From positions 682,001 to 746,000 of the forward strand of contig NZ_CP097800.1 in assembly GCF_000612545.2 (NCBI RefSeq): DNA of 64,000 nt. The letters are read 5' to 3'. The notes under the pieces are model-generated. The model was not told the origin of the DNA. It made no database searches and was given only the letters and a program-made list of their open reading frames with translations. This stretch comes from Streptomyces sp. PCS3-D2. Lineage in GTDB: Bacteria > Actinomycetota > Actinomycetes > Streptomycetales > Streptomycetaceae. The translations under genes and the position numbers were made by a program. Shown in pieces: positions 21,680-46,783 of the stretch; position 1 is the stretch's first letter; every line of letters begins with the position of its first letter.

Positions 21680-21813
21680 TGGGCCGGTCGGGTCCCGGCC
21701 GGGGACGACAGGCCCATCGCGCTCGCCCCGTCTCCCCGTCCGGGGAGCGGGAGACGCGCACGGTGGCGGGCAGGGGCGGGGCTGATCGGTCCCACATGGG
21801 GCCACTCGGCCCC
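21680..21813. promoter_or_regulatory. three DosR-box-like palindromes between SHOCT and universal stress genes
   Basis: Sites TGGGCCGGTCGGGTCC (21680-21695), GGGGCTGATCGGTCCC (21778-21793) and GGGGCCACTCGGCCCC (21798-21813) share the consensus GGGGCCGGTCGGCCCC found in nine places. The last two are 20 bp apart start to start, two helical turns, and end about 74 bp before the stress gene. The GGG-N8-CCC spacing equals that of the mycobacterial DosR box. Confidence 0.6.
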
Positions 21814-21886
21814 TGCTCGGTCGGCGCGCCGCGGGTGACGCTGGAAGAGAGCCGCTGGTCCGCGGCACCGCGAGGAGGTTTACGTC

Positions 21887-22756
21887 ATGAAGCACCATGT
21901 GACCGTCGGCATTGACGGCTCGCCCGAGAGCCGGGCCGCGGCCCGCTGGGGGGCCCGGGAAGCGGCCCTGCGGGACGTACCGCTGAGGCTCGTCCACGCC
22001 GTCGACTGGCTCATCAGCCCGGCGGTGCCGCGGCCGGGCCGCGAAGTGGCCGACCGCTGGGCCGACGAAGCGCTCGCCGAGGCGGTGGAGGACGTGCGAC
22101 GCCGGCATCCCGGGCTGGACGTCTCGACGAGATGCCTCTCCGGCAGGCCCGCGGCAGCCCTGGCCGCGGAGGCGGCCGACGCCGGACTGCTCGTCCTCGG
22201 CTCGCGAGGGGTGGGAGGCCTGGTCGGATTCCTCATCGGTTCGGTGAGCCTGTCGACACTGGTGGCCACCGAGACGCCGGTGGTGCTCGTACGCGTGTCG
22301 GACACGCCCGAGGAGGCCCGGCCCACCCGCTACGGGGAGATCGTCCTGGGCGTCGACATCCACGAGGCGGCGGACAGGGTTCTGGCGTTCGCCTTCGAGG
22401 AGGCCGAGCGCCGCGGCTGCGCCCTGCGTGCGATCCACAGCTGGAAGATGCCGTCGATGTACCGGTACGCACCGTTCTTCGACCCGGAGAACGAACGGGA
22501 GGTCGGCCGGAGTGTCACCGTGATGCTCGACGACATGCTGATGCCGTGGCGCCACAAGTTCCCGTCCGTGAGCGTCACCCACGAGGCGTTCGAGGGATCC
22601 GCGGGTGAGCGGCTCGTCCAGGCCGCGGCAAGGGCGGACCTGGTCGTCGTGGGCCGACGCCTGCGCCGCTCGCCTCTGGGCGTGCATCTGGGGTCCGCTG
22701 CCCACGCGGTGGTGCACCACGCCGCTGCGCCCGTCGCGGTCGTCGCCCACGACTGA
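21887..22756 (+). CDS. tandem-domain universal stress protein
   Basis: The 289-residue protein has two Usp domains (about 1-140 and 148-289). The first begins VTVGIDGSPESRAAARW and has the ATP-loop-like GSRGVGGLVGFLIGSVS, ending in TPVVLVRV. The second begins IVLGVDIHEAADRV and has VVGRRLRRSPLGVHLGS. Domain two lacks a clear G-x2-G-x9-G loop. Such tandem USPs are abundant in the mycobacterial DosR regulon. ATG 21887 follows GAGGAGG. Two palindromic sites lie upstream. It heads a run of five same-strand genes. Confidence 0.92.
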   Translation: MKHHVTVGIDGSPESRAAARWGAREAALRDVPLRLVHAVDWLISPAVPRPGREVADRWADEALAEAVEDVRRRHPGLDVSTRCLSGRPAAALAAEAADAGLLVLGSRGVGGLVGFLIGSVSLSTLVATETPVVLVRVSDTPEEARPTRYGEIVLGVDIHEAADRVLAFAFEEAERRGCALRAIHSWKMPSMYRYAPFFDPENEREVGRSVTVMLDDMLMPWRHKFPSVSVTHEAFEGSAGERLVQAAARADLVVVGRRLRRSPLGVHLGSAAHAVVHHAAAPVAVVAHD

Positions 22757-22781
22757 CGGCCCCTCACAAGGAGATCGGACC

Positions 22782-23468
22782 ATGTCCCATCGCACTGTTG
22801 CAGACGTCATGACCCGGAACGTGGCCACGGTGAGCCCCGAAGCGCCCCTCAAGACGGTCGCCCGGAGCCTCAACGACCACGAGGTCTCCGCCCTGCCCGT
22901 CGTGGACCCCCGCCGCCGTCCGGTCGGCATCGTCTCCGAAGCCGACCTGCTGCGCAGGCAGGCCGGGCTGCCCGATACCGAAGGGCGCGACGCCCTGCAC
23001 GCCACGGCATCCGCGGTCCGGGCCTCCATGGAGGCCCGGACCGCCGGCGATCTGATGTCCGCCCCCGTCCTGACCGCCCGGCCGGAATGGGGCATCGTCG
23101 AGACGGCCCGCTTCCTGCACGAGCGAGGCGTCAAGCGTCTGCCCGTGGTTGACGAGACCGGGACCCTGGTGGGCATCGTCAGCCGCACCGACCTGCTGCG
23201 CCCCATGCTCCGCCACGACGACGCCATCCGCGACGAGATCGTCGACGACGTGCTGGGCCGTACCCTCAGGATGACCCCGGGAGGGGTTGCGGTGACCGTG
23301 AGCCAAGGCGTCGTCTCGTTGAGCGGGCGGGTCGAGGAGCGGTCGGCCATTCCGATCGTCGAACGACTGTGCCAGTCGGTCGACGGGGTCGTCAGCGTGG
23401 ACCAGGCCCTCGGCTACGCGGTCGACGACCTGTCCGGGGTCGCCGCCCCTCGCCGTGCCGCGCAGTGA
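22782..23468 (+). CDS. CBS-CBS-BON domain protein 1
   Basis: The 228-residue protein has two CBS motifs, VADVMTRNVATVSPEAPLKT to ADLL (about 5-60) and AGDLMSAPVLTARPEW to DLLRP (about 85-145). A C-terminal BON domain (about 150-215) contains VTVSQGVVSLSGRVEERS. CBS pairs bind adenosyl ligands; BON domains associate with membranes or lipids. ATG 22782 has AAGGAG nine bases upstream and follows the USP gene by 25 bp, so the two form an operon. It is the first of four tandem paralogues. Hrp1 of the DosR regulon is a CBS-pair protein without BON. Confidence 0.9.
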   Translation: MSHRTVADVMTRNVATVSPEAPLKTVARSLNDHEVSALPVVDPRRRPVGIVSEADLLRRQAGLPDTEGRDALHATASAVRASMEARTAGDLMSAPVLTARPEWGIVETARFLHERGVKRLPVVDETGTLVGIVSRTDLLRPMLRHDDAIRDEIVDDVLGRTLRMTPGGVAVTVSQGVVSLSGRVEERSAIPIVERLCQSVDGVVSVDQALGYAVDDLSGVAAPRRAAQ

Positions 23469-23481
23469 GCGCACAGGACGA

Positions 23482-23579
23482 GGGGCGGAAAGAGCCCGCC
23501 CGCTTCTCGCGGAACCCGATCGTGCGGTGCACGGCCACCAGCCGCTTCTCCACATCCTCTCGGGAACTCTTTCCGCCCC
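23482..23579. repeat. 13-bp inverted repeat enclosing 72 bp between CBS genes 1 and 2
   Basis: GGGGCGGAAAGAG at 23482-23494 is exactly complementary to CTCTTTCCGCCCC at 23567-23579. The enclosed 72 bp contain smaller repeats (CGCTTCTC twice) but no reading frame. It could be a structured terminator, a small-RNA-like element or the remnant of a tiny mobile element; no clear target duplication flanks it. Confidence 0.6.
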
Positions 23580-23611
23580 ATCCATGACAGCACGCCCGGT
23601 TTCGGGAGAAC

Positions 23612-23627
23612 AGGGCCGACCGGTCCC
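23612..23627 (-). promoter_or_regulatory. DosR-box-like palindrome upstream of CBS gene 2
   Basis: On the minus strand the site reads GGGACCGGTCGGCCCT, 13 of 16 matching the window consensus. It lies 81 bp before the start of the second CBS gene, which is separated from the first by 240 bp and so probably has its own promoter. Confidence 0.5.
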
Positions 23628-23708: not shown

Positions 23709-24314
23709 ATGAAGCACCTTCGCACGGTCGAGGACGTCATGACCCACGCCGTCATCTCCGTCGATCGCAGAACACCGTTCAAGGAGGTCGTGGAGGCCAT
23801 GCGGCAGTGGCGAATCAGCGCTCTGCCCGTCCTGTCGGAGGAAGGTCGAGTGGCCGGCGTGGTCTCGGAAGCGGATCTGCTGCTCAAGGCCCAGGGTGCG
23901 GACGAGTCCCGCGCCGTCACTGCCGGGCAGCTGATGACCGTACCGGCGGTCACCGTGACCCAGGACGCCACCATCGCCGGCGCCGCCCGCCTGATGGCCC
24001 GCGGCCACCTCAAGCGACTCCCGGTCGTCGACGGCGACGGCCGCCTCATCGGCGTGGTCAGCCGGGGCGACCTCCTCAAGATCTATCTCCGCCCCGACGC
24101 CGACATCGCCGAGGAACTCCGGGAGCTGATCGTGGCGAAGCTCATCCCCGCGGGATCGGCCGTGGTGCAGGTCCACGTGGCCGACGGCATCGTGCACCTG
24201 CGCGGTTCCGTCCCCGACCCGGCGCTGAAGGACGTGCTGGTGCGTATCGCACGGACCGTACCGGGCGTCGTGGACGCCACGGCCGTGCATCTCGACACCG
24301 AAGTCCGCGCGTGA
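23709..24314 (+). CDS. CBS-CBS-BON domain protein 2
   Basis: The 201-residue product has CBS motifs VEDVMTHAVISVDRRTPFKE (about 6-60) and AGQLMTVPAVTVTQDATI (about 70-130), then a BON domain (about 135-198) with VQVHVADGIVHLRGSV. The BON half ends differently from its neighbours (RTVPGVVDATAVHLDTEVRA), so it is the most diverged of the four. ATG 23709 has no strong Shine-Dalgarno. It is the first gene of a second transcription unit and is 11 bp from the next CBS gene. Confidence 0.9.
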   Translation: MKHLRTVEDVMTHAVISVDRRTPFKEVVEAMRQWRISALPVLSEEGRVAGVVSEADLLLKAQGADESRAVTAGQLMTVPAVTVTQDATIAGAARLMARGHLKRLPVVDGDGRLIGVVSRGDLLKIYLRPDADIAEELRELIVAKLIPAGSAVVQVHVADGIVHLRGSVPDPALKDVLVRIARTVPGVVDATAVHLDTEVRA

Positions 24315-24961: not shown

Positions 24962-25618
24962 ATGAAGCATCGGGAAGTCCGCGAGCTGATGACCCGCGAG
25001 GTCGTCACCGTCCCCAGCAGCGCTCCGTTCAAGGAGGTCGCGCGCACCCTGACGGAGCACGGGGTGTCGGCCGTTCCCGTCGTCGACGCGGCGGGGCGGC
25101 CGCTCGGCGTGATCTCGGAACGGGACCTGCTACCGAAGTCCGCCGGCCAGAGCGACTACTTCCGGTCGCTTCCCGCACGGGAGGCCTGGGAGGAGGACAA
25201 GGCCGCGGGTACGCGCGCCGAGGAGCTGATGTCCTCGCCGCCCGTGTGCGCCCGACCCGACTGGACCGTCGCCGAGGCCGCCAGGCTGATGGAGGCCCAG
25301 GGAGTCAAGCGGCTCCTGGTCGTGGACGGCTCGGACGTGCTGATCGGGATCGTCAGCCGCCGGGACCTGCTGCGGATCTTCCTCCGCGACGACGAGGACA
25401 TCCGTCGCGAGATCATGGGTGAGGTGCTCGGACTCGGCGCACCCCAGAACCCCTCGGCCATCACCGTGACCGTCACCGACGGCCGGGTGGAACTGGACGG
25501 GACCGTCGGCCTCAGGAGCCTCATCCCCCTCGTCGAACGCCTCTGCCGAACCGTGGACGGTGTGGTCTCGGTGACCCAGCGTCTCGGATACTCCACCGAC
25601 GACACGAATCCGGGCTGA
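24962..25618 (+). CDS. CBS-CBS-BON domain protein 4
   Basis: The 218-residue protein has CBS motifs VRELMTREVVTVPSSAPFKE and AEELMSSPPVCARPDWTVAE. A charged linker (AREAWEEDKAAGTRA) separates them, and the BON domain contains ITVTVTDGRVELDGTVGLRS. ATG 24962 follows AGGAGAGGA, nine bases after the stop of gene 3. It ends 46 bp from the convergent hydrogenase large-subunit gene. The conserved order suggests different ligand ranges on one scaffold, which is inference. Confidence 0.9.
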   Translation: MKHREVRELMTREVVTVPSSAPFKEVARTLTEHGVSAVPVVDAAGRPLGVISERDLLPKSAGQSDYFRSLPAREAWEEDKAAGTRAEELMSSPPVCARPDWTVAEAARLMEAQGVKRLLVVDGSDVLIGIVSRRDLLRIFLRDDEDIRREIMGEVLGLGAPQNPSAITVTVTDGRVELDGTVGLRSLIPLVERLCRTVDGVVSVTQRLGYSTDDTNPG

Positions 25619-25664: not shown

Positions 25665-27029
25665 TCAGTGGGTGCGTTGGATGTCCAGTTCCAGGAAGTG
25701 GGCCGAACACGAGATGCACGGGTCGTGGTTGCGGACGGCCCGCTCGCACAGCCGCGTGAGCTCGGCCTCGGAACCCTCACCGCGGTCGAGCCCCGCCTGC
25801 ACCAGCCGACGCAGGTCCTCCTCGATGGCGCCCTGGTTCTGGGCGGTCGGCGGCACGATGCGGGCACCGGTGACCCGGCCCCCGCCGTCGAGCGCGTAAC
25901 GGTGGTAGAGCAGGCCGCGCGGTGCCTCCGTGGCACCGTGCCCGGTGCCGGCCCGGGGCGGTACCTCTGTGTACGGGCGGGCCGGACGCTCGTACTCGGC
26001 GATGATCCGGAGTGCCTCTTCCACCGCGTACAGGACTTCCACCGCCCGGACGAGGATGCTGCGGTAGGGGTTCCTGCAGGCCTCCCCCCGCCCCGTGCCC
26101 GCGCGCGACGGGGGGTCGCCGAGGCCGGCCGCCCGTGCCGCTTCCAGCGCCAGCGGGGACAGCAGATGGCCGCTGACCGCCCAGCGGGCGAGCGAGCCGG
26201 TGAGGTGCCTGCGGCCGTCCAGCCGGGAGTGCAGGGCTGTGGAGTGGGGGACCTGCTCCTCGGCCACGTGGTCGGTGAAGTCGCGCAGGGGGAAACCGTA
26301 CGGCGGGGGCGTCGCGGCGTACGGGAGCACGGTGGGGACGCCGGACTCGATGGCGTAGGTGCCGGGCTCGGCGAGGGCGAGCAGGTCGGCGTCGCACTCG
26401 GCGTCGGGGAACTCGAAGCCGGCGACCCAGCGCACCGTGTCCCACGCGTCGTCGAGGGCGGTGCGCAGCCGCTCCTCCAGGGGGCGGAGCTCAGCACGGG
26501 TCGGGGCGCGGTGAAAGCCTCCGAGCCGGACGTTGACGGGGTGGATGGCCCGTCCCCCGAGCAGTTCGACCACGGCGTTCCCGGTCTGCTTCAGGCGCAG
26601 TCCGCGCCTGACGTGCTCCAGATGGGAGCGGGACAGACCGATGACGTCATCCTCGCCGAGGAAGTCCGGTGCGTGCAGCATGTGGATGTGCAGCGTCTGG
26701 CTCTCGATCCATTCGCCGCAGTACAGCAGGCGGCGCAGGGCGGCCAGTTGTCCGTCGACGACGACGCCGCACGCGTCCTCGATGGCGCGGCAGGCACTCA
26801 TCTGGTAGGCGACGGGACAGATCCCGCAGATCCGGGAGGTGAGATCGGGTGGCTCCGTGTGCGCCCTGCCCCTGAGGAAGGCTTCGAAGAACCGCGGCGG
26901 TTCATAGATGCTGAGCCGCGCCTCGGTGACGGTGCCGTGGCGGATCCTCAGGTGCAGCGCGGTCTCGCCCTCGACACGGGCGAGGGAGGGGATGCGGAGC
27001 TCCCGGGCGGGGGGCGTGGGCTCGCTCAT
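25665..27029 (-). CDS. hydA: [NiFe]-hydrogenase large (alpha) subunit, group 3b type
   Basis: The 454-residue catalytic subunit carries both nickel-binding motifs: N-terminal RICGICP (about 67-73) and C-terminal DPCISCSAH near the end. The ten residues after that His ([10 protein letters not shown]) are a typical cleaved extension, and a maturation protease gene lies in the same cluster. The subunit order beta, gamma, delta, alpha matches soluble group 3b NADP-linked (sulf)hydrogenases. It should oxidise or evolve H2 in the cytoplasm. No hyp metal-insertion genes are in this window, so these must lie elsewhere. It overlaps the small subunit gene by four bases. Confidence 0.93.
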
Positions 27030-27844
27030 CCGGGTCCTTCCGCGTCGGCCGTGCCGGGTTGCGCCTGTTCCTCCACGGCGGTGAAGGCGGTCACGTTGAA
27101 GGTGTGCAGGAACCTGGCGATGTCCTCCTCGCCCATCCCGTCACGCTGCATCAGCGGGACCAGCGCGGGCAGGTTCGTGGTTCCGGCCGGCCCGAAGCAG
27201 CCGTAGCAGCCCCGCCCGTACGTCGGGCACAGGGCTCCGCAGCCCGCGTGGGTGACGGGGCCGAGGCAGGGCGTTCCCTGGGCGACGGTGACACAGACGT
27301 TGCCACGCCGCTTGCAGGAGAAGCAGACGCTGTGGTTCGCGATGGCGGGCTTGCGCCCGGCGAGGAACGCGGTGATGACCTCGACGAGCTGACCGCGATC
27401 GATGGGACAGCCGCGCAGTTCGAAGTCGACCGGCACGTGGGCCGAGACCGGCGTGGACGTCGCGAGCGTCTCGATGTACGCGGGGCGGGCGTAGACGGCC
27501 GCCAGGTACCCCTCGACGTCGGCGTAGTTGCGCAGCGCCTGCACGCCGCCGGCCGTGGCGCAGGCGCCGATGGTGACAAGGTGGCGGGCATCCGCGCGGA
27601 TGCGACGGATGCGCTCCAGGTGCTCGGGCGTGCTGACCGACCCTTCGACCAGGACGAGGTCGTAGGGGCCGGGAGCGATGTCGCCGGACGCTTCCAGGAA
27701 GTGGGCGATGTCCAGTTCGGCGGCGATGCCGAGCAGTTCGTCCTCGCAGTCGAGGAGGGTGAGCTGGCAGCCGTCGCAGGAGGCGAGCTTGAACACGCCG
27801 AGTCGGGGGCGGGCGGGAGGCTGGGGTGGGGTGGGGGTGCTCAT
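27026..27844 (-). CDS. hydD: [NiFe]-hydrogenase small (delta) subunit, group 3b type
   Basis: The 272-residue electron-transfer subunit has the proximal-cluster motif [12 protein letters not shown] (about 22-33), then [25 protein letters not shown] and a Cys-rich [19 protein letters not shown]. These provide ligands for three Fe-S clusters, as in the 20-kDa NADH-dehydrogenase-like family. There is no Tat signal, consistent with a cytoplasmic enzyme. It lies one base after the gamma gene and overlaps the alpha gene, so it is translated in step with both. Confidence 0.93.
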
Positions 27845-27845: not shown

Positions 27846-28652
27846 TCACAGTTCCCGGACGGTGAGCAGGGGTTCGGCCTGGTCGTAGCGGACGACCGGG
27901 CCGTCGCGGCAGAGGAGGAGGGGCCCGAGCTGGCAGTGCCCGCAGTGGCCGGTGGCGCAGCGCATGTTGCGTTCGAGGGAGACCTGGATGCGGTCGGGGC
28001 GTACCCCTCGGTGGATCAGTGCCCGTGCGGTCGCGCGCATCATCACCTCGGGACCACAGACGAAGGCCACCGTGTCCGACGGCGTGAACCGGGCCTCGCG
28101 CAGCAGGGTGGTGACCACGCCGACCCGGCCGGTCCAGCCGCTGGAGGGCCGGTCGACGGTGACGGCGCCGAACGGCCTCTCCCAGCCGGGGAACTCGTCC
28201 GTGTACAGCAGATCGGCGGGGGTCCGGGCCCCTGCGAGGACGTTCAGCCGCCCGAAGGCGCGGGGGTCGGCCAGAACGGTGTCGACGAGGGGACGCAGTG
28301 GGGCCAGCCCGATGCCGCCGGCGATGACGAGCAGGTCGTTGCCGTGAGCGGCGGCCGTGTCCCAGGCGGTGCCGAAGGGACCGCGCACGCCGACCCACCC
28401 GCCGCTGCGCAGGCCGTACAACGCGCGGGAGACGGCTCCGACGGCGCGCACCGTGTGCGCCAGCCGGTAGCCGCCCTCGATCCGGGATACGGATACCGGG
28501 ATCTCGCCGACGCCGAACGCGTACAGCATCGCGAACTGGCCGGGTGCGAAGGGATCCAGGGCGTCCCCGGCAGGCTCCACCACGAGCGTGACCGTGTCGT
28601 GCGTCTCGTCGCGGCGGTCCACCACGCGGCAGGGAACCGGTGCCGACGTCAC
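27846..28652 (-). CDS. hydG: FAD/NAD(P)-binding oxidoreductase, hydrogenase gamma subunit
   Basis: The 268-residue protein is a ferredoxin-NADP reductase-type module. It has a FAD barrel with [22 protein letters not shown], a nucleotide domain with [16 protein letters not shown] and FVCGPEVMM, and a C-terminal [2Fe-2S] motif ([19 protein letters not shown]) as in PyrK and sulfhydrogenase gamma. It would exchange electrons between NAD(P)H and the hydrogenase core. GTG 28652 is chosen because it overlaps the upstream stop as GTGA. Confidence 0.9.
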
Positions 28653-29134
28653 GGTGCGGCTCCGCTTCCCCGCGGTCCCGGCGGTCCGTAGAGGTCGAGC
28701 AGCCGGGTCCGGGTGGCCCGCAGCCGGTCGCCGATGGTCTCGGCGACGGCGGTGACCAGCGACAGGCCCAGTGCCGTGTCCTCGGCGCACAGGTCCTGGA
28801 CGGCGTCGGCATCGAACTCCCAGGCGCGGACGGGCTCCCGGGTCTCGGCCGCCAGGTGCCACTGGCGCGGGGGACACAGCCAGGACCAGCCGAGCAGGCT
28901 GCCCGCGCCGACGGTCTCGACGACCGCACGGCCCCGACCGGGCACGTGGATGTCGAGCGCGACCGTGCCCGAGCGAATGATCCAGAAGCGGTCGGCCTCC
29001 TCCCCTTCCTCGAAGATCCGGGTGCTGCCCGGAAGGGCGACGTCACGGGCGAGGGCCATCAGCCTCCCGCGGTGCTCCGCCGTCAGCGCGGCGAGCACGC
29101 CCTCGCCGGGAGGCCCACCCGGATGCGCGGTCAC
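28649..29134 (-). CDS. cyclic-nucleotide-binding domain protein without DNA-binding domain (hydrogenase operon)
   Basis: The 161-residue protein is one cNMP-binding fold (about 25-120) with FEEGEEADRFWIIRSGTVALDI. The usual ligand-loop sequence GE-x5-RSA is replaced by AGSLLGWSWLCPPRQWHLAA. It has no helix-turn-helix, so it cannot act as a CRP-type repressor. Its gene overlaps both neighbours by GTGA between the beta and gamma genes, implying a role in the hydrogenase complex or its regulation. A close paralogue stands alone at 31699. Confidence 0.85.
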   Translation of the reverse strand: MTAHPGGPPGEGVLAALTAEHRGRLMALARDVALPGSTRIFEEGEEADRFWIIRSGTVALDIHVPGRGRAVVETVGAGSLLGWSWLCPPRQWHLAAETREPVRAWEFDADAVQDLCAEDTALGLSLVTAVAETIGDRLRATRTRLLDLYGPPGPRGSGAAP

Positions 29135-30300
29135 GGCGTGTCCTCGCGCCGCGCGGCCTCCTGGTGCAGGGCGTGGGCTTCCTCGGTGAGGTCGATCCCC
29201 GTGGGACACCACACGATGCACCGGCCGCAGCCGACACACCCCGAACTGTCGAACTGGTCGTGCCAGGTGCCCAGCTTGTGGGTGAGCCACTGACGGTAGC
29301 GGCTGCGGGGAGAGGACCGGACGGGGCCGCCGTGCAGGAGCGAGAAGTCCAGGTCGTAGCAGGAGTCCCAGAGGCGCCAGCGCTCGGCGTGATCGCCGGT
29401 CAGGTCGGTCACGTCCTCCGTGGTGGTGCAGAAGCAGGTGGGGCAGACCATGGTGCAGTTGCCGCAGCTCAGGCAGCGGGCGGCGACGTCGTCCCAGCGA
29501 TCCGCCTCCAGGTTGTCCCGCATCAGGGTGCGCAGGTCCACCGGCGGCATGGAGCGGCCCATGCGTTCGGCGGCGGCGCCCACGGCCCGGACCGCGGCCG
29601 TCCGGGTGGCGTCGTCGGGGCTCCGCCGCGGCAGTTCCGCGAGGACCGCGGCGCCCTCCTCGCTCCCGCTCCGACACAGGAAGCGGTGGCCCGCATCGTC
29701 CACGATCTCGGTGAGGGCGAGGTCATACCCGGCGTCGGCGGCCGGCCCCCCGCCCATGGAGACGCAGAAGCAGGTGGCACCCGGCTCGGTGCACTCGGCC
29801 GCGATCAGGAAGGCACCCGTCCGCCGGGACAGATAGGTGGGGTCCCGGTACCTGCCTGCGCCCATCACCCGGTCCAGGATCCGAACGGCGCGCAGGTCGC
29901 AGGGCCGCACGCCGAGGAACGCGTACGACGTGCCCGGCCGCTCCTCCTCGCGGACGACGGGAGTACCGTCCGGACCCCGGTCCGCGGACCACTGGCGGAC
30001 GCGCTGCGGGTGCAGGAACGACTTCCACGACTGGGGTCCCGCGCTGTGCGCGAAGGCCGCCCCGTCCTCGCGGGGGCGGAGCCGGTACCGCCCGGCCTCC
30101 AGCTCGACCCCCCAGCCGTAGGGGAGTGCGTCGGCGGAGTCCAGTTCGTCGAGGACGATCGCGCCGTCGCGGACGGTCGGGCCGATCACCGTGCGGCCGC
30201 GCCGCTTCAGGACACGTACGAGGGCGTCCAGCCCGTCGCGGTCCAGGACCGCCTCGGCCTGATGGTCGGGGACGGCTCCGGCGTCCGAAGCGTCGGTCAT
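29131..30300 (-). CDS. hydB: 4Fe-4S dicluster protein, hydrogenase beta subunit
   Basis: The 389-residue protein resembles HydB/AsrA. An N-terminal globular part includes FLGVRPCDLRAVRILD and ECTEPGATCFC, and two ferredoxin motifs follow: CLSCGNCTMVCPTCFC (about 290-305) and GCVGCGRCIVWCPTGID (about 357-373). It should relay electrons between the gamma flavoprotein and the NiFe core. ATG 30300 has GAGAGGTGC upstream; the frame extends seven codons further but without a ribosome site. Confidence 0.9.
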   Translation of the reverse strand: MTDASDAGAVPDHQAEAVLDRDGLDALVRVLKRRGRTVIGPTVRDGAIVLDELDSADALPYGWGVELEAGRYRLRPREDGAAFAHSAGPQSWKSFLHPQRVRQWSADRGPDGTPVVREEERPGTSYAFLGVRPCDLRAVRILDRVMGAGRYRDPTYLSRRTGAFLIAAECTEPGATCFCVSMGGGPAADAGYDLALTEIVDDAGHRFLCRSGSEEGAAVLAELPRRSPDDATRTAAVRAVGAAAERMGRSMPPVDLRTLMRDNLEADRWDDVAARCLSCGNCTMVCPTCFCTTTEDVTDLTGDHAERWRLWDSCYDLDFSLLHGGPVRSSPRSRYRQWLTHKLGTWHDQFDSSGCVGCGRCIVWCPTGIDLTEEAHALHQEAARREDTP

Positions 30301-30342
30301 GGTGCACCTCTCGGTTTCCACGTGCCTGGATCCGGCAGCATG

Positions 30343-30879: not shown

Positions 30880-31000
30880 GGGTACCCGCTTTCCTCTTCC
30901 GGGTGTCTGCGGGCACAGCCTGCCCTGCGCGCGGGACGGTCACCTGCGCCACGGGCCGAACGGCGTACGGCGCGGGCGCCGGGTCGGGGGACGGGCCTGC

Positions 31001-31595: not shown

Positions 31596-31643
31596 AGGGC
31601 CGAATGGGCCCCTGTCCCGGGGAACCGGGGGCCGGTCGGCCCA
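31596..31643. promoter_or_regulatory. two DosR-box-like palindromes in a divergent promoter
   Basis: On the minus strand, 31596-31611 reads GGGCCCATTCGGCCCT; on the plus strand, 31628-31643 reads GGGGCCGGTCGGCCCA. They are 32 bp apart start to start, three helical turns. They lie 78 bp before the PPOX gene and 55 bp before the cNMP-binding gene. Confidence 0.6.
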
Positions 31644-33945: not shown

Positions 33946-34030
33946 GCGCACCTCCAAGCGACGCCCGGGGAAGTCCGGCCTGCCTCCTCACCGTATCCCC
34001 GCCCCCGCGTTCCCGCTCAGGCCGTGGGCG

Positions 34031-38660: not shown

Positions 38661-41498
38661 TCACCACGGATCGTGCTGCGAAGAGGGCCGCTCAGGACCC
38701 TCCTGGGGGCCGAAGGTCCCGGTCGGACCCCCTGCGTGCGCACGCTTCGCTGTCCGGCCACCCGCGGTACGCGGTGCGGGAGGCCTCCGGACCGTCGGGA
38801 CGTCCGTGGTCCGGCGGGTCCGCCGGGCCCAGCGCCGCAGTTCGTCGGTGCCCCATACGAGAACCGGGAAGGTCGCGATGAGCGCGACGACGTCGGGGGA
38901 GAGGGCGGCGGTGCCGAACAGGTCCTGCAGCGGCGGCGCGTAGACGAGCGCTGCGGTGAAGGCGAGCTCGAAGGCGATGCCCGCCAGGAGCAGGCGGTTG
39001 GTGAACAGGCCGATCTCGCGCAGGGCTGCGTGGTCGGTGCGGGCGGCCATCGCCGTGCCGACCTGGCAGGTGACGATGCCGGCGAACGTGGCCGTGGTCG
39101 CGGTGACGTACGCGTGGTGGAGCGGGGTGCCGGGGCCCGTGGGGTCGCCGGGGTGCCACCCCGCCCGCCACAGCACGGAGAAGAACGCGGTCATGACCAG
39201 GGCGGCGGACACCGTCCCGAGCCATCCCCAGCTCCGGATGAGCATGTCGCGGGAGATGACGCCCTGCGAGCTCGGCCGGGGCGGTCGGCTCATGACGCCG
39301 GGCTCGGCGCGTTCCCGGCCGAGGGCGAGGGCGGGGAGGGTCTCGGTGCCGAGGTCGATGGCGAGGATCTGCAGGACGGTCAGGGGCAGCGGGACGGCGC
39401 CGGCCGAGAGCGCGAACACCAGGAACGGAACGACCTCGGGGGTGGTGTGGGCGAAGATGTAGACGATGAACTTGCGGACGTTGTCGTAGACGCGGCGCCC
39501 CGACTCGATGGCGGCGACGATGGTGGCGAAGTTGTCGTCGGTCAGCACCATCGTGGCGGCCTCGCGTGCCACGTCCGTCCCGGAGCGTCCCATCGCGACC
39601 CCGATGTGCGCGCGGTGAAGCGCGGGGGCGTCGTTGACGCCGTCGCCGGTCATGGCCACGATCTGCCCGTGTGCGCGCAGGGTGTCCGCCACGTGCAGCT
39701 TGGTCTCGGGCGAGGAGCGGGCGAAGACGACTTCGGCATCACCGGGGGCCAGGAGCCGGTCGAGTTCCTGGTCGCCCACCGTCTCGGCCTGCGCCACCAG
39801 CGCGAGGCCGGGGACGCCGATCCCGACCTCCCGCGCGACGGCGGCCGCGGTGGCGCCGTTGTCACCGGTGACGACATGGACCCGGACGCCCGCCTCGTGG
39901 CATCGGCGGACGGCCTCCGCGACCTCGGGCCGCGGAGGGTCGTACAGGCCGACGAGCCCCAGCAGGCGCAGGCCGCTCTCCGCTTCATCGCGCCGCGCCG
40001 GTATGGCGGCCCCTTTCGGCAGGTCGCGCACGGCGACGGCCAGCACCCGCATGCCGTCGTGGGCGAGCCGGTCCGCGGCGGCGAGAGCGGCGTCGCCGCC
40101 CCCGGCGTCGCCCTCTCCCCCGGCGTCGAGAGCACGCGCCACCGCCTCCGGTGCGCCCTTGACGACGACGCGGGCGCCGCGTGGCGCCGTCTCCTGCACG
40201 ACGGACATCAGGCGCAGCCGGGGGTCGAACCGGAAGACCGCCCGACGGCCGGAGTCCCGGTCGGCGAGGTCGACTGGGGCGCCGCGGGCGGCAGCTCCCT
40301 CGACCAGGGCCACCTCGGTCGGATCGCCGTGCAGGTGCCCCTCGGCATCCCGCGTGACCGTGGTGCACAGGGCACCGGCGCGGGCGAGTCCGGCTGCCCA
40401 GGGACCGTCGTCCGTACCGTGTCCAGGTGTCCACACGGTCTGGAGCCGCATGCGGTTGCGGGTGAGGGTGCCGGTCTTGTCGGTGCAGATCACGTTGGTG
40501 GACCCGAGCGTCTCCACGGCGCTCAGCCGCTTGACCACGGCTCCCTGGCGGGCGAGGGACCGTACCCCGACGGCGAGGGCGAGGGTGATGATCGGCAGCA
40601 GGCCCTCGGGCACATTGGCCACCAGCAGGCCGATGGCGAAGACCAGCGAGTCGGTCAGCGGGAGTCCCACGGCCATCCCTGCCAGGAGGAACACCACGCC
40701 CATGGCGCCCGCGACCGCGGCGATCAGCCAGGCGACCTTCTTGACCTGCCGTTCCAGGGGGCTGGGGTCGCGCCGGGTGCGCTGGCTGAGCGCCGCGATC
40801 CGTCCCAGCTCGGTGTGGCCGCCCGTGGCGAACACGATCGCCCTGGCCTGCCCTTCGGTGCAGGTCGTACCGCTGAAGACGAGGTTCGGCTCCTGAAGCG
40901 GCGGTGCCCCTGCGAGGCCGGGGCCGGCGACGCGTTCGGCGGGGGCGGACTCCCCGGTCAGCATCGACAGGTCGACCTCGATGCCGCCGTCGGTCAGGCG
41001 CGCGTCGGCGGGCACTTTGGCACCCTCGTCGAGGACGATGAGGTCGCCTGGCACGAGTTCGCGCGACTCGACGGCCGACGGTTGTCCGTCGCGGATCACC
41101 CATGCGCGCTCGGGCAGATACCGGGCCAGGGTCTCCACCGCCTGCTCCGCCTGGCGCTCCTGCAGCAGCGCGAAGGCGGCGTTGACGACGACCACGGCGA
41201 CGATGGCGCAGCCGAGGACGGCCGTGTCCGCCACGAAGGCCAGTGCGGCAGCCGCCCAGAGCAGCAGGGCGAGCGGGTGGACGAGCTGGCGGACGAGTTC
41301 GCGGCCCAGGGAGGTACGGGCCTTGCGGTGGACCTCGTTGGGGCCGTACACGGCGAGGCGGCGGGCCGCCTCGCGTGCGGACAGTCCGCTCGGCCCGGTA
41401 CCGAGTTCGCGCCGCAGGAGCGGCAGCGGTTCGAGAGGGTCGGGGCTCGGGGGCGGACCATCGGCCGGAAAGCGGGGCCGGCCGGCCGGCTCAGTCAT
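38661..41498 (-). CDS. cation-transporting P-type ATPase (P2-type) 2
   Basis: The 945-residue pump has [22 protein letters not shown] in helix 4, Asp340 in [16 protein letters not shown], and [11 protein letters not shown]. The helix 4 and following sequence resembles Na,K-ATPase and related P2C enzymes more than SERCA, so Na+, K+ or Ca2+ are candidate ions. The last 40 residues form an Arg/Pro-rich tail. It overlaps the Rv1733c-like gene by eight bases. Only about 30 percent of it, mostly around the motifs, looks shared with the ATPase at 34267, so it is not a recent duplicate. Confidence 0.92.
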
Positions 41499-42147
41499 CG
41501 CCGGGGCCCTGCTCGCGCCGCAGCCGGCCGGACCAGCGTGGCTCCACGGCCTCCCACTCGTGCTCCCACCCGGCCAGGCTGCGGGCATCGGCGAGGAGCA
41601 GGCGCAGGCGGACCGTTGCCCCCGAGGCAAGGACGAGCACGCCGAAGGAGCCGGCTCCGGCGACCGCGGCCGTGAAGACGCGCTGGGCGCGGGACGCCGG
41701 GGGCTTCGCTTCCATGCCCGCGTCATCGACCCAGACCGTGACCGTCCGGCCTGGCGGTGTGCCCGGCGGAACGGAGACCGTCCCGGTGTGCCGTTGGGCG
41801 GCCGGGTACTGCCAGACGGCCGGCGCAACCGTCCCAGAGGCGGTGCCGGAGCGGTCGGAGACGGTGTGCTCCGCAGCGCCGACCGTCGTCGCTTCGATCC
41901 GGTGGCGATGGCGGGCGGCTTCCCGCGCCGTCCGGTCTTCCGCGTCGTGGACGGCCGTGGCCACGGCGACGCCGCAGGACAGGGCGATCAGGAAGGAGAG
42001 CACGAAGGCGATGTGCCACCGGCGCCGGGTCCGGTCGACCGGACGGCGCAGCGCGTTCGCGCGTCCGCCGAGCAGTCGGCGGACCCGGCCGCCCGTCGCC
42101 GGACGCGCTCGTGCGGGCCCGTCTCCGGGTGTGCCTGCCTCGGGCAT
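41491..42147 (-). CDS. Rv1733c-like membrane protein
   Basis: The 218-residue protein has two membrane helices (about 45-66 and 157-180) flanking an extracytoplasmic segment that contains [24 protein letters not shown]. This layout matches the Rv1733c family, a DosR-regulon membrane protein of unknown function in Mycobacterium tuberculosis. ATG 42147 follows GGAGGTG. It is coupled to the pump gene by an eight-base overlap. Confidence 0.82.
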
Positions 42148-42181: not shown

Positions 42182-42685
42182 TCAGTGGGGAGCGGCGAGT
42201 TCGGCGCTGATGTGGTGGGCCCACGTCCGAATCCGTTCGGGATTGCGGAAGTCTCCTCCCTTCCCCGCCCGGACCATGGCCCGGGCGATGAACCCCGGGG
42301 TACTGGCCGTGACGCTGCCGCCGAAGGTGACGTGCTCGCGTGCACCGAGGCGCTCCATCTCCCGGGCCACCGCGGGCACCGGCGCAATGTCGTGCGTCTC
42401 GGCGGAACGGTCGACCGGGCCGCTGCTGAACAGGTAGACCGGGCGGTGCTGGAGATCACCGGCGTTGCGCTCCGCGCAACGTCTGGCCTTCCCGCTCCAG
42501 TGTCCCGCGTACAGGGCGCCGCCGAGCACCACGGCGTCGTAGCCGCGGACGTCCTCCACGTCGTCGGCCGGGACCACGACGGCGTCGAGGCCGTCCTCAC
42601 GCAGAGTCTGGCCGATCTCGGAGGCGATGCCGGCGGTGGCACCGTGCTTGGTGCCGTAGGCGACGAGGACACGCTTGGACGTCAT
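42182..42685 (-). CDS. flavodoxin-domain protein
   Basis: The 167-residue product starts VLVAYGTKHGATAGIASEIG, the FMN phosphate-binding loop of flavodoxins. It contains VEDVRGYDAVVLGGALYAGHW, typical of protoporphyrinogen oxidase-like (HemG) flavodoxins. It would be a small electron carrier or FMN oxidoreductase in the cytoplasm. Its ATG overlaps the Hsp20 stop as ATGA, so the two are made together. Confidence 0.88.
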   Translation of the reverse strand: MTSKRVLVAYGTKHGATAGIASEIGQTLREDGLDAVVVPADDVEDVRGYDAVVLGGALYAGHWSGKARRCAERNAGDLQHRPVYLFSSGPVDRSAETHDIAPVPAVAREMERLGAREHVTFGGSVTASTPGFIARAMVRAGKGGDFRNPERIRTWAHHISAELAAPH

Positions 42686-43140
42686 GACGACTCTCCCTTG
42701 CCGTCTGCCGCGGTACGTCGGACGGGGATGCTGCGCCTGGACTCCTCGGGCGCGGCCGGCATGGGCACGCGCACGGTGAGGATGCCGTCCTCGTACGCCG
42801 CCTCGACGTCGTCGGAGGGGATCGGCCCGGGCAGCCGGACCGTCCTCTGGAAGGAGCCGTAGCGGAACTCCGAGTGGTCCTTCTCCTCCTTGCTCTCGGT
42901 GTGCTCGGCGCTGACGGTGAGGGTGTCTCCCTCGACCGTGATCCGGATGTCCCGGTCGGGGTCCATCCCGGGAAGTTCGGCGCGCAGCGTGTACCGGCCC
43001 TCCTTGTTGGTCACCTCGATCGGGATCGGGAGGGTGTCGAACGAGGACCGCCACAGCGGGAACCGGGGGAAGTCGGTGCCGAACCAGTCCCTGAAGTCGG
43101 GGAACGGGCTGCGCCTGCGCTCCAGGTGCGTTGCTGACAT
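42682..43140 (-). CDS. hsp20: Hsp20/alpha-crystallin family chaperone
   Basis: The 152-residue small heat-shock protein has an N-terminal arm with WFGTDFPRFP and the alpha-crystallin domain (about 40-130) with YTLRAELPGMDPDRDIRITV. The sheet ends in GILTVRVPMPAAPE, followed by the RRSIPVRR tail with an I-x-V contact motif. It resembles HspX/Acr, the dominant dormancy chaperone of mycobacteria. A palindromic site lies about 100 bp upstream, inside the 3' end of the PEP synthase gene, suggesting its own promoter. Confidence 0.92.
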   Translation of the reverse strand: MSATHLERRRSPFPDFRDWFGTDFPRFPLWRSSFDTLPIPIEVTNKEGRYTLRAELPGMDPDRDIRITVEGDTLTVSAEHTESKEEKDHSEFRYGSFQRTVRLPGPIPSDDVEAAYEDGILTVRVPMPAAPEESRRSIPVRRTAADGKGESS

Positions 43141-43190: not shown

Positions 43191-45632
43191 TCACTGTCCC
43201 GAGGGGGAGGCTGCGCCGCTTGAGACCATCGGGTCCCCGATGGGGCCGTTCGGCCCTCCCTGGGCCGGTTCGGCGGCGGCGACGTGCTGCTTGACGGCGG
43301 CGAAGCTGTCCGGGGCCACGGAGACGGAGTCGACCCCGGCCCCGACCAGGAACTCCGTGAAGGCGGGGTCGTCGCTGGGACGCTGGCCGCAGAGGCCGAC
43401 GGGGCGGCCGGCGGCCCGGGCGCGGTGGACGAGGGTTTCGATGCTCCGGGTGACCGCCGGATCGGTCTCGTCGAAGACGTGGGCGAGGGCTTCGGAGTCG
43501 CGGTCGACGCCCAGGGTGAGCTGGGTCAGGTCGTTGCTGCCGATGGAGAAGCCGTCGAAGCGTGCGGCGAATTCCCGGGCCAGGATGACGTTGGCCGGGA
43601 TCTCCGCCATGACGTAGACCTTCAGCCCGTTCTCCCCGCGCCGGAGGCCCTCCTCCGCCATGACGCCCAGCACCCGGTCGGCCTCGTCGAGGCTCCGGCA
43701 GAAGGGAATCATGACGATGACGTTGGTCAGGCCCATCTCGTCGCGGACCCGGCGCAGGGCCCGGCATTCGAGGGCGAAGCCCTCCCGGTATCCGTCGCTG
43801 TAGTAGCGGCTCGCGCCGCGCCAGCCGATCATCGGGTTGGCCTCGGCCGGTTCGAACGGCCCGCCGCCGACCAGGCGCGCGTACTCGTTCGTCTTGAAGT
43901 CGCTGGTCCGTACGACGACCGGGGCGGGCCACCGGGAGGCGGCGATCCGGGCGATACCGTACGCCAGGCGGTCACTGAAGTACCGCGTGCGGTCGAGGTG
44001 TCCCCGTGTCAGCCGGTCGACGGCGGCACGGTCGGCGGCGTCCAGGCGTTCGGGGTGCAGCAGGGCCATGGGGTGGACCTTGACCTGGTGCGCCACGATG
44101 AACTCCAGCCGGGCCAGGCCGACGCCGTCGGCGGGCAGGCGCCACCACCGGAAGGCCGCGGAGGGATCGGCGAGGTTGAGCATGACGCGTGTCCGGGTGG
44201 CGGGGATGTCCGCGAGGTCGGTCTCGGTCTCCTCGTAGGCGAGAAGCCCGTCATAGACCATGCCGCGTGCGCCTTCGGCGCAGGAGACCGTCACCTTCTG
44301 ACCGTCGTGCAGGGCGTCGGTCGCACGGCCGGTGCCGACGACGGCGGGGACTGCGAGTTCGCGGCTGACGATCGCGGCGTGGGAGGTACGGCCGCCGTGG
44401 TCGGTGACCACGGCGGAGGCCCGCTTCATGATCGGTTCCCAGTCCGGGTCGGTGATGCCGGTGACGAGTACCCCGCCGGCGGGGAAGCGGTCGAGATCGA
44501 CGGGCGAGTCCAGGACGACGACCGGCCCGCTGCCGATGGCTTCGCCGACGGCGATGCCGTCCACGACGGGGGCGTCGGGCACGGCCGTCAGGCGGCAGCG
44601 GCGCAGGGTGGAGGCGGCACGACGGGACTGCACGGTCTCGGGCCGGGCCTGCACGATCCACAGCTCTCCGGTGAGGCCGTCCTTGGCCCATTCCAGGTCC
44701 ATGGGGCAGCCGTAGTGTCCTTCGACCACCAGTGCCCACTCGGCGAGGAGCCGTACCTCGGCGTCGGTCAGCACCCGCTGCGAGCGCTCCTCGGCAGTGG
44801 TGTCGACGGTCCGGGTCAGGCCGTGTTCGGCGTAGACCGCCTTCCGCCGCTTCGCTCCGACGCGGACGTCGATCAGCGGGTCCAGCCGGGGGTCCTTCAG
44901 GCTCGGCTTGAAGACGGTGTATTCATCGGGGTCGACCTGCCCGCTGACGACCGTCTCCCCCAGTCCGTACGCCGCACTGATGACGACGACCTCGGGGAAT
45001 CCGCTCTCCGGGTCGAGGGTGAAGATCACCCCGGCTCCGGCCAGGTCCGACCGGACCATGGCCTGGACACCGACGGAGAGGGCGACCTGGAGGTGGTCGA
45101 AGCCCATCCGCTCCCGGTAGTCGATGGCACGGTCGGTGTACAGGGAGGCGTAGCAGCGGTGCACCGACTCCAGCAGCCGGGCTGCCCCGCGCACGTTCAG
45201 GTACGTCTCCTGCTGGCCGGCGAAGCTCGCCTCCGGCAGGTCCTCGGCGGTGGCACTGCTGCGTACGGCGACCTCGGGATCCTCCCTGCCTTCGTCGCGC
45301 CCCAGCTGCTCGTAGGCCGCGACGATCTCGGCCCGCAGCGCCGGGGGCAGCGGCTCGGCGAGGGTCATCGACCGGATCGCTGCCCCGACCTCGTCGAGCG
45401 CGGCGCCTTCGCGCAGGCGCGCGATCTGCTCCTCGATCCGCCCCCGCAGTCCGTGCCCGTCGAGCAGCTCTCCGTACGCGTCGGCCGTCGTCGCGAACCC
45501 GGGGGGCACGCGCACGCCGGCACCGGCCAGGTGGGCCGTCATCTCCCCCAGTGAGGCGTTCTTGCCCCCCACACTGCCGACGTCCTGCCGGCCGATCTCC
45601 GCGAACGGGACGACACGCCGGGTGCTTGCCAT
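43191..45632 (-). CDS. ppsA: phosphoenolpyruvate synthase
   Basis: The 813-residue enzyme has the N-terminal ATP-binding domain (VGGKNASLGEM; AVRSSATAEDLPEASFAGQQ), the phosphohistidine swivel (GGRTSHAAIVSRELAVPAVVG), and the C-terminal PEP barrel with SNDLTQLTLGVDRD and catalytic VGLCGQRPSDDP. It makes PEP from pyruvate and ATP, supporting gluconeogenesis. ATG 45632 follows GGAGG; the TTG six codons upstream is rejected. The C-terminal tail is Gly/Pro-rich and contains a regulatory palindrome in its DNA. It sits in the stress block, consistent with metabolic re-routing. Confidence 0.92.
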   Translation of the reverse strand: MASTRRVVPFAEIGRQDVGSVGGKNASLGEMTAHLAGAGVRVPPGFATTADAYGELLDGHGLRGRIEEQIARLREGAALDEVGAAIRSMTLAEPLPPALRAEIVAAYEQLGRDEGREDPEVAVRSSATAEDLPEASFAGQQETYLNVRGAARLLESVHRCYASLYTDRAIDYRERMGFDHLQVALSVGVQAMVRSDLAGAGVIFTLDPESGFPEVVVISAAYGLGETVVSGQVDPDEYTVFKPSLKDPRLDPLIDVRVGAKRRKAVYAEHGLTRTVDTTAEERSQRVLTDAEVRLLAEWALVVEGHYGCPMDLEWAKDGLTGELWIVQARPETVQSRRAASTLRRCRLTAVPDAPVVDGIAVGEAIGSGPVVVLDSPVDLDRFPAGGVLVTGITDPDWEPIMKRASAVVTDHGGRTSHAAIVSRELAVPAVVGTGRATDALHDGQKVTVSCAEGARGMVYDGLLAYEETETDLADIPATRTRVMLNLADPSAAFRWWRLPADGVGLARLEFIVAHQVKVHPMALLHPERLDAADRAAVDRLTRGHLDRTRYFSDRLAYGIARIAASRWPAPVVVRTSDFKTNEYARLVGGGPFEPAEANPMIGWRGASRYYSDGYREGFALECRALRRVRDEMGLTNVIVMIPFCRSLDEADRVLGVMAEEGLRRGENGLKVYVMAEIPANVILAREFAARFDGFSIGSNDLTQLTLGVDRDSEALAHVFDETDPAVTRSIETLVHRARAAGRPVGLCGQRPSDDPAFTEFLVGAGVDSVSVAPDSFAAVKQHVAAAEPAQGGPNGPIGDPMVSSGAASPSGQ
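43242..43257 (+). promoter_or_regulatory. DosR-box-like palindrome upstream of hsp20
   Basis: GGGGCCGTTCGGCCCT lies 101 bp before the Hsp20 start, within the last codons of the PEP synthase gene. A partial second site (TGGGCCGGTTCGGC) follows at 43261. The location in coding DNA makes chance more likely than for the intergenic sites. Confidence 0.45.
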
Positions 45633-45646
45633 GACGACCTCCGGGC

Positions 45647-45751
45647 TCAATACGGGAGCGGGCGGCCGGACGGGGTGCGCAGGTCCGGCGGCGCGGGCTC
45701 GATGGGCTGCTTCGGGCGGGACCGGATCCGGATGTCTCGCTGCCCGCTCAC
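45647..45751 (-). CDS. possible 34-residue coupled small protein
   Basis: A GTG at 45751 overlaps the stop of the XRE-PPOX gene as GTGA and opens a 34-codon frame ending TGA 14 bp before the PEP synthase start. The peptide is basic and Pro-rich (SGQRDIRIRSRPKQP then IEPAPPDLRTPSGRPLPY). The codons are typical for the genome. It matches no family I know. Its position between coupled genes supports translation, but it may be a chance frame. Confidence 0.4.
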   Translation of the reverse strand: MSGQRDIRIRSRPKQPIEPAPPDLRTPSGRPLPY

Positions 45752-46428
45752 TGCCTGACCACCCGGCGCCCGGTGATCCGGATCGCGGTGACCTTCATCC
45801 AGTGGGTCCGCGGACCGCCGGCCCAGGGCAGGGAGTACGCGACGGCGTCGAGCCGGGCGAGCTCCTCCGCATCCGTGACCCCCTCCGCCTCGCCCACGGC
45901 CAGGACGCTCCAGCCCAGGCGCGTGACGTCGTCCACATGGTCGACCTCGAAGGCCACCTCGGTGCCGGCGGCCCGCGCGAGCACCGCCTCGCCCGAGGTC
46001 CGGAACGCGATGTCGCGGCCCGCCACGACGTAGTTGACCGGCAGTATGGCCGGGCCCTCCGGCGTGAAGACGGCGACCCTGCCCACACCGTGCGTGGACA
46101 GCAGCCGCCGGCACTCGCCCTCGGACAACTCGACCAGCCTGGCATCCGACATGGCCGTCCCCCGACCCGGCGGGAATTCCGTCGTCGCGCCCGAGAGTTC
46201 GGCGGCGGTCGTCCCCAGCGCATCGGCGAGTCGCAGGAGGGAGCCGATCGCCGGCGCTGCCGCGTGCTCCTCCAGGTAGGTGATGTAGGCGCCGTCAGCC
46301 CCGCAGCGCTCGCCCAGTTCGTCCCGGGTGAGGCCGAGTTCCTCACGGCGCAGGGCGATCCGCCGCCCGAGGTCGGTACGTCCGGCCGGCGCCTCCGCGG
46401 CGCCCGGCCCGTGCTGGGTTCTGCTCAT
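45748..46428 (-). CDS. XRE helix-turn-helix plus PPOX fusion protein
   Basis: The 226-residue protein joins a Cro/C1-type helix-turn-helix (about 20-75, with GLTRDELGERCGADGAYITYLE) to a PPOX split barrel (about 95-220, with RLLSTHGVGRVAVFTPEGPAILPVN, shown in part, and TRLGWSVLAVGEAE). The fusion suggests a flavin- or F420-sensing regulator, perhaps of the adjoining genes. ATG 46428 has only a weak ribosome site. Its PPOX half is related to the single-domain protein at 31060. Confidence 0.88.
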   Translation of the reverse strand: MSRTQHGPGAAEAPAGRTDLGRRIALRREELGLTRDELGERCGADGAYITYLEEHAAAPAIGSLLRLADALGTTAAELSGATTEFPPGRGTAMSDARLVELSEGECRRLLSTHGVGRVAVFTPEGPAILPVNYVVAGRDIAFRTSGEAVLARAAGTEVAFEVDHVDDVTRLGWSVLAVGEAEGVTDAEELARLDAVAYSLPWAGGPRTHWMKVTAIRITGRRVVRQ

Positions 46429-46511
46429 CGTCTTCCCGTCCTCTCGGAGTCGCAGTTGTGTGGGGTGGCCCGGACCGTCGCAGCGCGTGCTGCGGCCGGG
46501 GAGACCGGTGG

Positions 46512-46673
46512 TCACGGTGGGTGCCCGTCCGATGCGTCCCGTGCCGGCCACGACGGCGGGGTCCTCGGGCCGACGTCCCCGTTCAGGACCCGGCCGCGCA
46601 CGGTGACGGCTTCGGCGCGGACGACCGCGTCGGCTGCGGTCCGTCCGGAGTCCTGGAAGACGACTGCCTTCAC
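46512..46673 (-). pseudogene. short remnant of a zinc-type alcohol dehydrogenase N-terminus
   Basis: A GTG at 46673 with a strong AGGAGGG site opens a 53-residue frame that begins VKAVVFQDSGRT, very like the start of MDR alcohol dehydrogenases (MKAVVFxxxG). The similarity fades within about 30 residues and no zinc or NAD motifs follow. The intact ribosome site next to two palindromic sites suggests that a once-regulated gene has been truncated, or that this is a new small ORF. Confidence 0.35.
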
Positions 46674-46746
46674 GACACTGCCCTCCTGACTCACGTGCCT
46701 CGGGAGTTTTCACCGCCAGGCTGGGCCGGGCCCGACCGCCCGCGCA

Positions 46747-46783
46747 TGGGCCGGTCGGGCCCCTGGACGGGCCTGTCGGCCCC
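46747..46783. promoter_or_regulatory. two DosR-box-like palindromes in a divergent promoter
   Basis: TGGGCCGGTCGGGCCC (46747-46762) and CGGGCCTGTCGGCCCC (46768-46783) are 21 bp apart start to start, two helical turns. They lie in the region between the ADH remnant and the beta-CASP gene, about 66 bp before the latter. A weaker inverted copy overlaps 46722-46737. Confidence 0.6.

Follow-up and report, generated by a model that had tools for sequence, protein, structure and literature searches.

Palindromes in a stress-gene cluster of Streptomyces sp. PCS3-D2 as likely operators of OsdR, with probable control of a hydrogenase operon

Which regulator reads the 16-bp palindromes that recur among the stress genes in a 64,000-nucleotide stretch of Streptomyces sp. 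PCS3-D2, and do its targets include the hydrogenase operon lying among them? This stretch, hereafter the window, spans C1:682001-746000 in a genome of 7.63 Mb and has a G+C content of 73.3%. A first-pass annotation had listed nine palindromes and read them as the mark of a DosR/DevR-like dormancy regulon. Our analysis supports this reading in its Streptomyces version, the OsdR regulon with its published box: we consider it highly probable that the palindromes are operators through which OsdR, the Streptomyces DosR/DevR orthologue, activates stress genes, with probable control of the hydrogenase. A sequence check showed that all nine 16-mers are present exactly where they had been placed, that the pairs are indeed 20, 21 and 32 bp apart, and that the GGG-N8-CCC spacing is correct. 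The TCGG described at the centre-right of every copy is found on the plus strand in only seven; the sites at 23612 and 31596 carry it on the minus strand, and it is common to all nine when either strand is counted. Eight sites were intergenic in our own gene models as well, the exception being 43242, which lies within the last 70 bp of the pyruvate phosphate dikinase (PPDK) gene 43191-45632, ahead of the hsp20 start.

OsdR is the Streptomyces counterpart of DosR, and its box, AGGGCCGATCGGCCCT, was published in 2016 (Urem et al., PMC5069765). The consulted sections of that paper give 25 distinct predicted S. coelicolor sites; in electrophoretic mobility shift assays every predicted site was bound, one at lower affinity, and binding of OsdR was reported for mycobacterial DevR targets as well. 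Solely from these 25 sites, with no input from the window, we built a symmetric scoring matrix, and a sequence was called a box at 10 bits or more unless stated otherwise. Seven of the nine listed sites reached this value (Table 1), and the matrix added two boxes that had been missed, at 21701 (10.1 bits) and 38706 (11.7 bits), the latter inside the end of the ATPase gene upstream of the universal stress protein (USP) gene 37714-38616(-). Furthermore, the gene kinds of the OsdR regulon (USP, PPDK, PPOX and related) were recognised in the cluster by Pfam. Since the box, the regulator and the kinase match the published OsdR system, we regard the window as a further instance of the OsdR regulon. 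The main value of this work is the confirmation of a published regulon from raw sequence; the proposed link between OsdR and a Streptomyces hydrogenase is an extension of it.

The number of boxes was compared with that obtained from permuted matrices, in which the columns were permuted by half-site (100 per window test). Within 200 bp of 16 gene starts (3020 bases), nine sites of at least 10 bits were counted, versus a mean of 0.24 and a maximum of 3 for the permuted matrices. The region from 20 to 48 kb held 11 such sites, versus a mean of 2.4 and a maximum of 10 for the permuted matrices and a mean of 1.9 and a maximum of 5 in 100 first-order simulations; its counts at 9 and 11 bits were equalled by two and one of the 100 permuted matrices, respectively. 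A search with the literal consensus and three mismatches yielded a modest excess (34 matches in the window versus a shuffle mean of 19.3 and a maximum of 32). The rest of the genome contained 3.7 sites per 64 kb (13 stretches of 20 kb). Given the high local count and this background level, the enrichment is local. The first-pass annotation had asked whether the sites might be no commoner than in random DNA; judged by the permuted matrices and simulations, they exceed chance locally.

The boxes also recur at matching places in related loci. As the closest relatives we took the loci with an hyhB at least 90% identical to that of the window, namely L033, L034, L169, L170 and L171 (L172 is the same record as L034 and was counted once). 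The pair of boxes 32 bp apart was kept in all five, and the equivalent of the 31628 box had an identical score in each of them. The pair was present even though the cNMP gene of L169 is a remnant and L033 has no PPOX match. The hsp20 box is located at -110 both in the window and in L034, and the box of the USP gene starting at 38616 at -98 in the window and at -97 (11.22 bits) in L033 and L034. Neighbouring box pairs (at least 7.5 bits, 12-60 bp apart) were collected from the window cluster, from L013 and 23 related loci, and from 75 hydrogenase promoters. Of the 42 distinct pairs, 23 showed a spacing of 20-22 bp; 40 permuted matrices gave 3.2 pairs per matrix, all distances together. This spacing would be compatible with two dimers bound to the same helix face. 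A literature search on box-pair spacing in DevR targets returned nothing.

The regulator gene is located outside the window and the sensor kinase inside it. The best PDB matches of the kinase 32194-33957 were the GAF domain 2vzw (1.9e-50), which we take to be that of DosT, and then the GAF domain of DevS (6e-43). As in a DevS/DosT sensor, the His ahead of PPM, presumably the haem ligand, is kept and HisKA_3 and HATPase domains are present; haem binding is predicted. Its counterparts in Streptomyces xanthophaeus and Streptomyces sp. NBC_01214 share 84-85% identity with the window kinase. The OsdR orthologue, here called RR1, was found at C1:7350384 on the opposite chromosome arm. Its best PDB match was DevR (5.8e-72), and it keeps the aligned Asp, which we assume to be the phosphorylation site, as well as the EKTVKN stretch. 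In a tree, RR1 fell into one group with the L037, L040 and L042 regulators, at a support of 91/94 that does not reach the starred level. It lies 5 kb from a second kinase, 58% identical to that of the window, within a second cluster of genes for USP, phosphoketolase, PPOX, cNMP, nitroreductase and kinase, with boxes of 20.0, 20.7 and 17.1 bits. In the five closest relatives, the kinase is adjoined by a regulator 84-90% identical to RR1, and the gene order is kinase, convergent OsdR, CBS, cNMP (the remnant in L169), box pair, PPOX and channel, hydrogenase; in L033 the channel alone occupies the PPOX-channel place between the box pair and the hydrogenase genes. In the window, the cNMP gene directly follows the kinase with no OsdR or CBS gene between them, and OsdR and the CBS gene have therefore probably been lost from beside the kinase here. 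L035, whose 21.7 kb contain no match to OsdR, is arranged like the window at the kinase.

The cluster resembles known systems to different degrees. As far as the consulted sections of PMC5069765 go, the S. coelicolor OsdR regulon (SCO0167-0219) has the same box, similar box-to-start distances, an orthologous regulator and kinase, and genes for USP, PPDK and PPOX, together with a Crp-like gene where the present cluster has cNMP genes, and a nitroreductase, which here belongs to the second locus. It differs in that the genes of our window kinase and regulator occupy opposite ends of the chromosome and in that a hydrogenase operon is present here; the word hydrogenase is absent from the main text of that paper. 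Genes for nitrate reductase and nitrate transport also belong to the S. coelicolor regulon. Homologues of regulator and kinase, the GGG-N8-CCC palindrome, and USP and Hsp20-type genes are shared with the mycobacterial DosR/DevR regulon. That regulon, which responds to low oxygen, NO or CO, also shares with the present cluster Rv1733c-type genes, CBS genes and paired boxes. The mycobacterial DosR core GGGACTWWAGTCCC was not found at our sites, which keep GGG-N8-CCC and differ inside: the inner letters are CCGNNCGG here, in contrast to the mycobacterial ACTWWAGT quoted by the first-pass annotation.

Judged from its sequence, the hydrogenase is complete and of the sulfhydrogenase type, with alpha, beta, gamma and delta subunits and CxxC nickel ligands, at NCBIfam scores below the equivalog cut-offs; the best PDB matches of HyhL were sulfhydrogenase 1 alpha (1.4e-59). 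We take its class to be group 3b. The PPOX gene starting at 31518 is co-directional with hycI and the hydrogenase genes, the PPOX-hycI gap is 180 bp, and the box pair 31596/31628 lies upstream. No terminator-like site was found in 30850-31720, a weak negative, as shuffles give only 0.2. Transcription may read through from PPOX into the hydrogenase genes. In related loci, hyhB is followed by a cNMP match in 29 cases out of 29. For M. smegmatis, the available parts of two papers place the Hyh operon under DosR control (PMC8125079, PMC13098282), and those of a third indicate that the Hyd3/Hyh genes MSMEG_3931-3927, numbered beside the Dos cluster 3932-3955, rise in low oxygen (PMC2799521). The window operon is like this sulfhydrogenase type in its four matching subunits, Ni-binding cysteine motifs and maturation protease, and unlike it in the cNMP-binding-domain gene between the beta and gamma genes. 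Published OsdR control of a Streptomyces hydrogenase was not found in literature searches covering titles, abstract openings and few subscription papers; the co-mentions of OsdR and hydrogenase that these returned were spinach work and S. lividans work with a single use of 'NADH hydrogenase'.

Across the genus, hyhB homologues were detected in 76 of 393 genomes. We examined up to 600 bp upstream for 75 of the 81 hyhB match rows, after setting aside the row of the window and five partial hits (G097, G080, the second match of G280 and two fragments of G230). A box was present in the last 100 bp ahead of hyhB in 25 of the 75, and the next five 100-bp bins held 2, 6, 1, 2 and 0. Within 200 bp of hyhB the count was 27 of 75, with a mean of 1.5 for 60 permuted matrices. 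Grouped by sequence, the 75 upstream regions form 65 groups, and a box occurs in 25 of these. An OsdR-like regulator (E<=1e-80, which lets in a second regulator type, RR2, as well) was counted by eye in 74 of the 76 hyhB genomes versus 218 of the 317 without hyhB (Fisher p 8e-9, uncorrected for kinship). For 12 relatives in which hycI comes first, about 6 kb further upstream was scanned at 9.5 bits. The divergent box pair was found in four (L169-L172) and nearer boxes in L174; a 12.2-bit box lies 166 bp ahead of hycI in genome G269 (L079/L169).

Several observations weigh against OsdR as the reader of the boxes or against its control of the hydrogenase. Conceivably, the palindromes could be a product of chance in 73% G+C DNA, or of G+C-rich features such as terminators and coding bias. 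Matches with three mismatches are common; the exact degenerate pattern occurred genome-wide 24 times versus 21 for a reversed control, which is no excess; the 16 sites of the whole window were equalled by four of the 100 permuted matrices; and two of the nine listed sites, 21680 and 21798, are weak. We judged the exact-pattern count too weak a test in G+C-rich DNA, one that alone could not reveal enrichment. The presence of nine boxes near gene starts, where 0.24 are expected, and their fixed distances in relatives make this explanation very improbable overall. For the strong sites, where a chance origin was rejected on the strength of the permuted matrices and simulations, it is hard to hold; 21680 may still be such a product. 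A different difficulty is posed by RR2 itself, a second DevR-like regulator of the NarL type at C1:6674696, which is 71% identical to RR1 and could share its boxes. The boxes might be read mainly by RR2, or by both regulators, and the window kinase need not feed OsdR. RR2 has a perfect-consensus 22.6-bit box about 100 bp upstream of its own gene, and in L042 an RR2-type regulator is located near a further kinase match. Moreover, no response regulator adjoins the window kinase, and the osdR-beside-osdK order is not found here; this order is an arrangement and not essential to an OsdR regulon. On the other hand, the orthologous kinase of the five closest relatives adjoins a regulator of the RR1 type, and we consider it unlikely that RR2 is the main reader or shares the boxes with RR1. 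As a separate observation, a gene for a COX1-type oxidase is located some 0.7 kb from RR2 in L164 (G000:C1:6665001-6685000), with boxes at 7149 and 7182, 33 bp apart, in the first 65 bp of the predicted frame, the true start of which is unsure; this gene may be a further OsdR target.

The first-pass annotation had suggested that a half-match at 30952-30967 may serve the hydrogenase operon. This sequence scored at a background value (Table 1) and the aligned place in L079-L082, L033 and L034 stayed below 5 bits, and we rejected it as a box. No good box is present directly ahead of the window hydrogenase genes. Another regulator could instead act on the operon at a conserved stretch about 30-80 bp ahead of hycI (GCCGTT-GCCCC and AGGGCAGGCTGT), which is kept in close relatives and is not a box. 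In five of the 12 hycI-first relatives, the roughly 6 kb scanned upstream of hycI contained no box of 9.5 bits, and two more (L177, L178) have boxes only at more than 1 kb from it. In addition, 48 of the 75 hydrogenase operons lack a box in the 200 bp next to hyhB; of the permuted matrices, one found a box in as many as 19 of the 75 by this measure. Against another regulator stand the box pair that precedes the co-directional genes both in the window and in L169-L172, the box ahead of hycI in G269, the box directly ahead of hyhB in 25 of 75 other operons and, from the parts of the two papers cited above, the DosR control of the M. smegmatis Hyh operon. We therefore regard control by another regulator as a possibility to be taken seriously, albeit the less probable one. 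Separately, short direct repeats (CCCGTCGAGGCCCGA) were noted at 30950-31040 between PPOX and hycI; they were not observed in nine aligned relatives.

If OsdR is indeed the reader of the boxes, a haem-GAF-type kinase, that of the window and probably also the 58%-identical one near osdR, would sense low oxygen or a redox change and phosphorylate OsdR, encoded elsewhere in the genome. Phosphorylated OsdR would then occupy the 16-bp boxes, mostly 60-120 bp ahead of start codons and in many cases with a pair of dimers separated by two helical turns, and would activate the genes for USP, CBS-BON, Hsp20, the cNMP-domain protein, PPOX and the beta-CASP nuclease. The cluster would accordingly be expected to respond to hypoxia. 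From the divergent pair 31596/31628, OsdR would probably also drive the leftward string PPOX-hycI-hyhB-cNMP-hyhG-hyhS-hyhL, and the sulfhydrogenase-type hydrogenase would hence be made when oxygen falls. For the genus as a whole, we give about even weight to the idea that Streptomyces OsdR, like the DosR-type system of M. smegmatis, turns on a sulfhydrogenase-type, NADP-linked hydrogenase at an oxygen fall, such that reductant leaves as H2, and that the control point has shifted in evolution, lying at the hyhB promoter in some cases and at a remote divergent box pair in others, and has been lost in some lineages; here it would have been kept, with the regulator on the far arm. What this adds to the published regulon is a testable link: part of the genus combines a stress/dormancy-type regulator and its box with a hydrogenase of the M. 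smegmatis hypoxia type. If the link is true, H2 turnover is predicted in hypoxic mycelium, and an aerobic genus could shed reductant as H2.

Table 1. Positions of box-like sequences and genes in the window
Feature	Position	Strand	Remarks
Weak box-like sequence	21680..21695		4.35 bits; 21 bp from 21701; at most a secondary site
OsdR box, newly added	21701..21716		10.1 bits; 178 bp ahead of USP start
OsdR box	21778..21793		10.83 bits; 101 bp ahead of USP gene 21887
Weak secondary box	21798..21813		7.46 bits; 20 bp from 21778, spacing class 20-22 bp
OsdR box	23612..23627		14.83 bits; 89 bp ahead of CBS-BON gene 23709
Claimed half-match ahead of hycI	30952..30967		6.87 bits; position partly conserved, no box in relatives
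OsdR box, divergent cNMP / PPOX-hydrogenase promoter	31596..31611		12.39 bits; partner 32 bp away
OsdR box, divergent cNMP / PPOX-hydrogenase promoter	31628..31643		15.15 bits
OsdR box, newly added	38706..38721		11.69 bits; 98 bp ahead of USP gene 37714-38616(-)
Strongest OsdR box in window	43242..43257		20.03 bits; 110 bp ahead of hsp20, in 3' end of PPDK
OsdR box	46747..46762		11.4 bits; 94 bp ahead of beta-CASP nuclease gene 46849; 21 bp from 46768
OsdR box	46768..46783		11.41 bits; 73 bp ahead of 46849
Universal stress protein	21887..22756	+	Pfam Usp
CBS-BON protein	22782..23468	+	Domain match on frame 22605-23468; start reset
CBS-BON protein	23709..24314	+	Domain match
CBS-BON protein	24962..25618	+	Domain match
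hyhL, [NiFe] large (alpha) subunit	25665..27029	-	CGIC and DPCISCSAH motifs
hyhS, small (delta) subunit	27026..27844	-	Sulfhydrogenase ShyD/HydD, below equivalog cut-offs
hyhG, flavin/NAD-binding (gamma) subunit	27846..28877	-	NAD_binding_1, DHODB_Fe-S_bind; true start inside frame
Second cNMP-binding-domain gene, inside hydrogenase operon	28655..29119	-	52% identical to 31699-32163
hyhB, iron-sulfur (beta) subunit	29131..30321	-	Fer4_22; sulfhydrogenase HydB/ShyB below equivalog cut-offs
hycI, hydrogenase maturation protease	30343..30879	-	TIGR00072 over cut-off
PPOX-like flavin protein, first gene of leftward string	31060..31518	-	Pfam Pyridox_ox_2
cNMP-binding-domain protein	31699..32163	+	Pfam; start by ribosome site
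DosT/DevS/OsdK-like sensor histidine kinase	32194..33957	-	GAF-GAF-HisKA_3-HATPase (Pfam)
Universal stress protein	36857..37714	-	Domain match
Universal stress protein	37714..38616	-	Domain match
Rv1733c-family protein	41491..42147	-	NF050032 over cut-off on longer frame 41491-42672
Hsp20	42682..43140	-	Domain match
Pyruvate phosphate dikinase (PPDK)	43191..45632	-	Domain match
HTH-PPOX protein	45748..46428	-	Domain match
Beta-CASP metallo-beta-lactamase-fold nuclease	46849..48276	+	Domain match

Some further features of the window stand apart from these questions. No RNA family scored over threshold anywhere in it. At 34267-41498, two USP genes lie between two cation-transporting P-type ATPases, and no box of at least 10 bits lies within 320 bp ahead of either ATPase start. 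A lone 14.4-bit box-like site at 5674, far from the cluster, is perhaps due to chance, the background at 12 bits or more being 1.0 per 64 kb. Besides the longer PPDK 43191-45632, the window encodes a single-domain PPDK_N protein at 20193-21182 with three partial matches, which is possibly a degenerate or a separate type of kinase.

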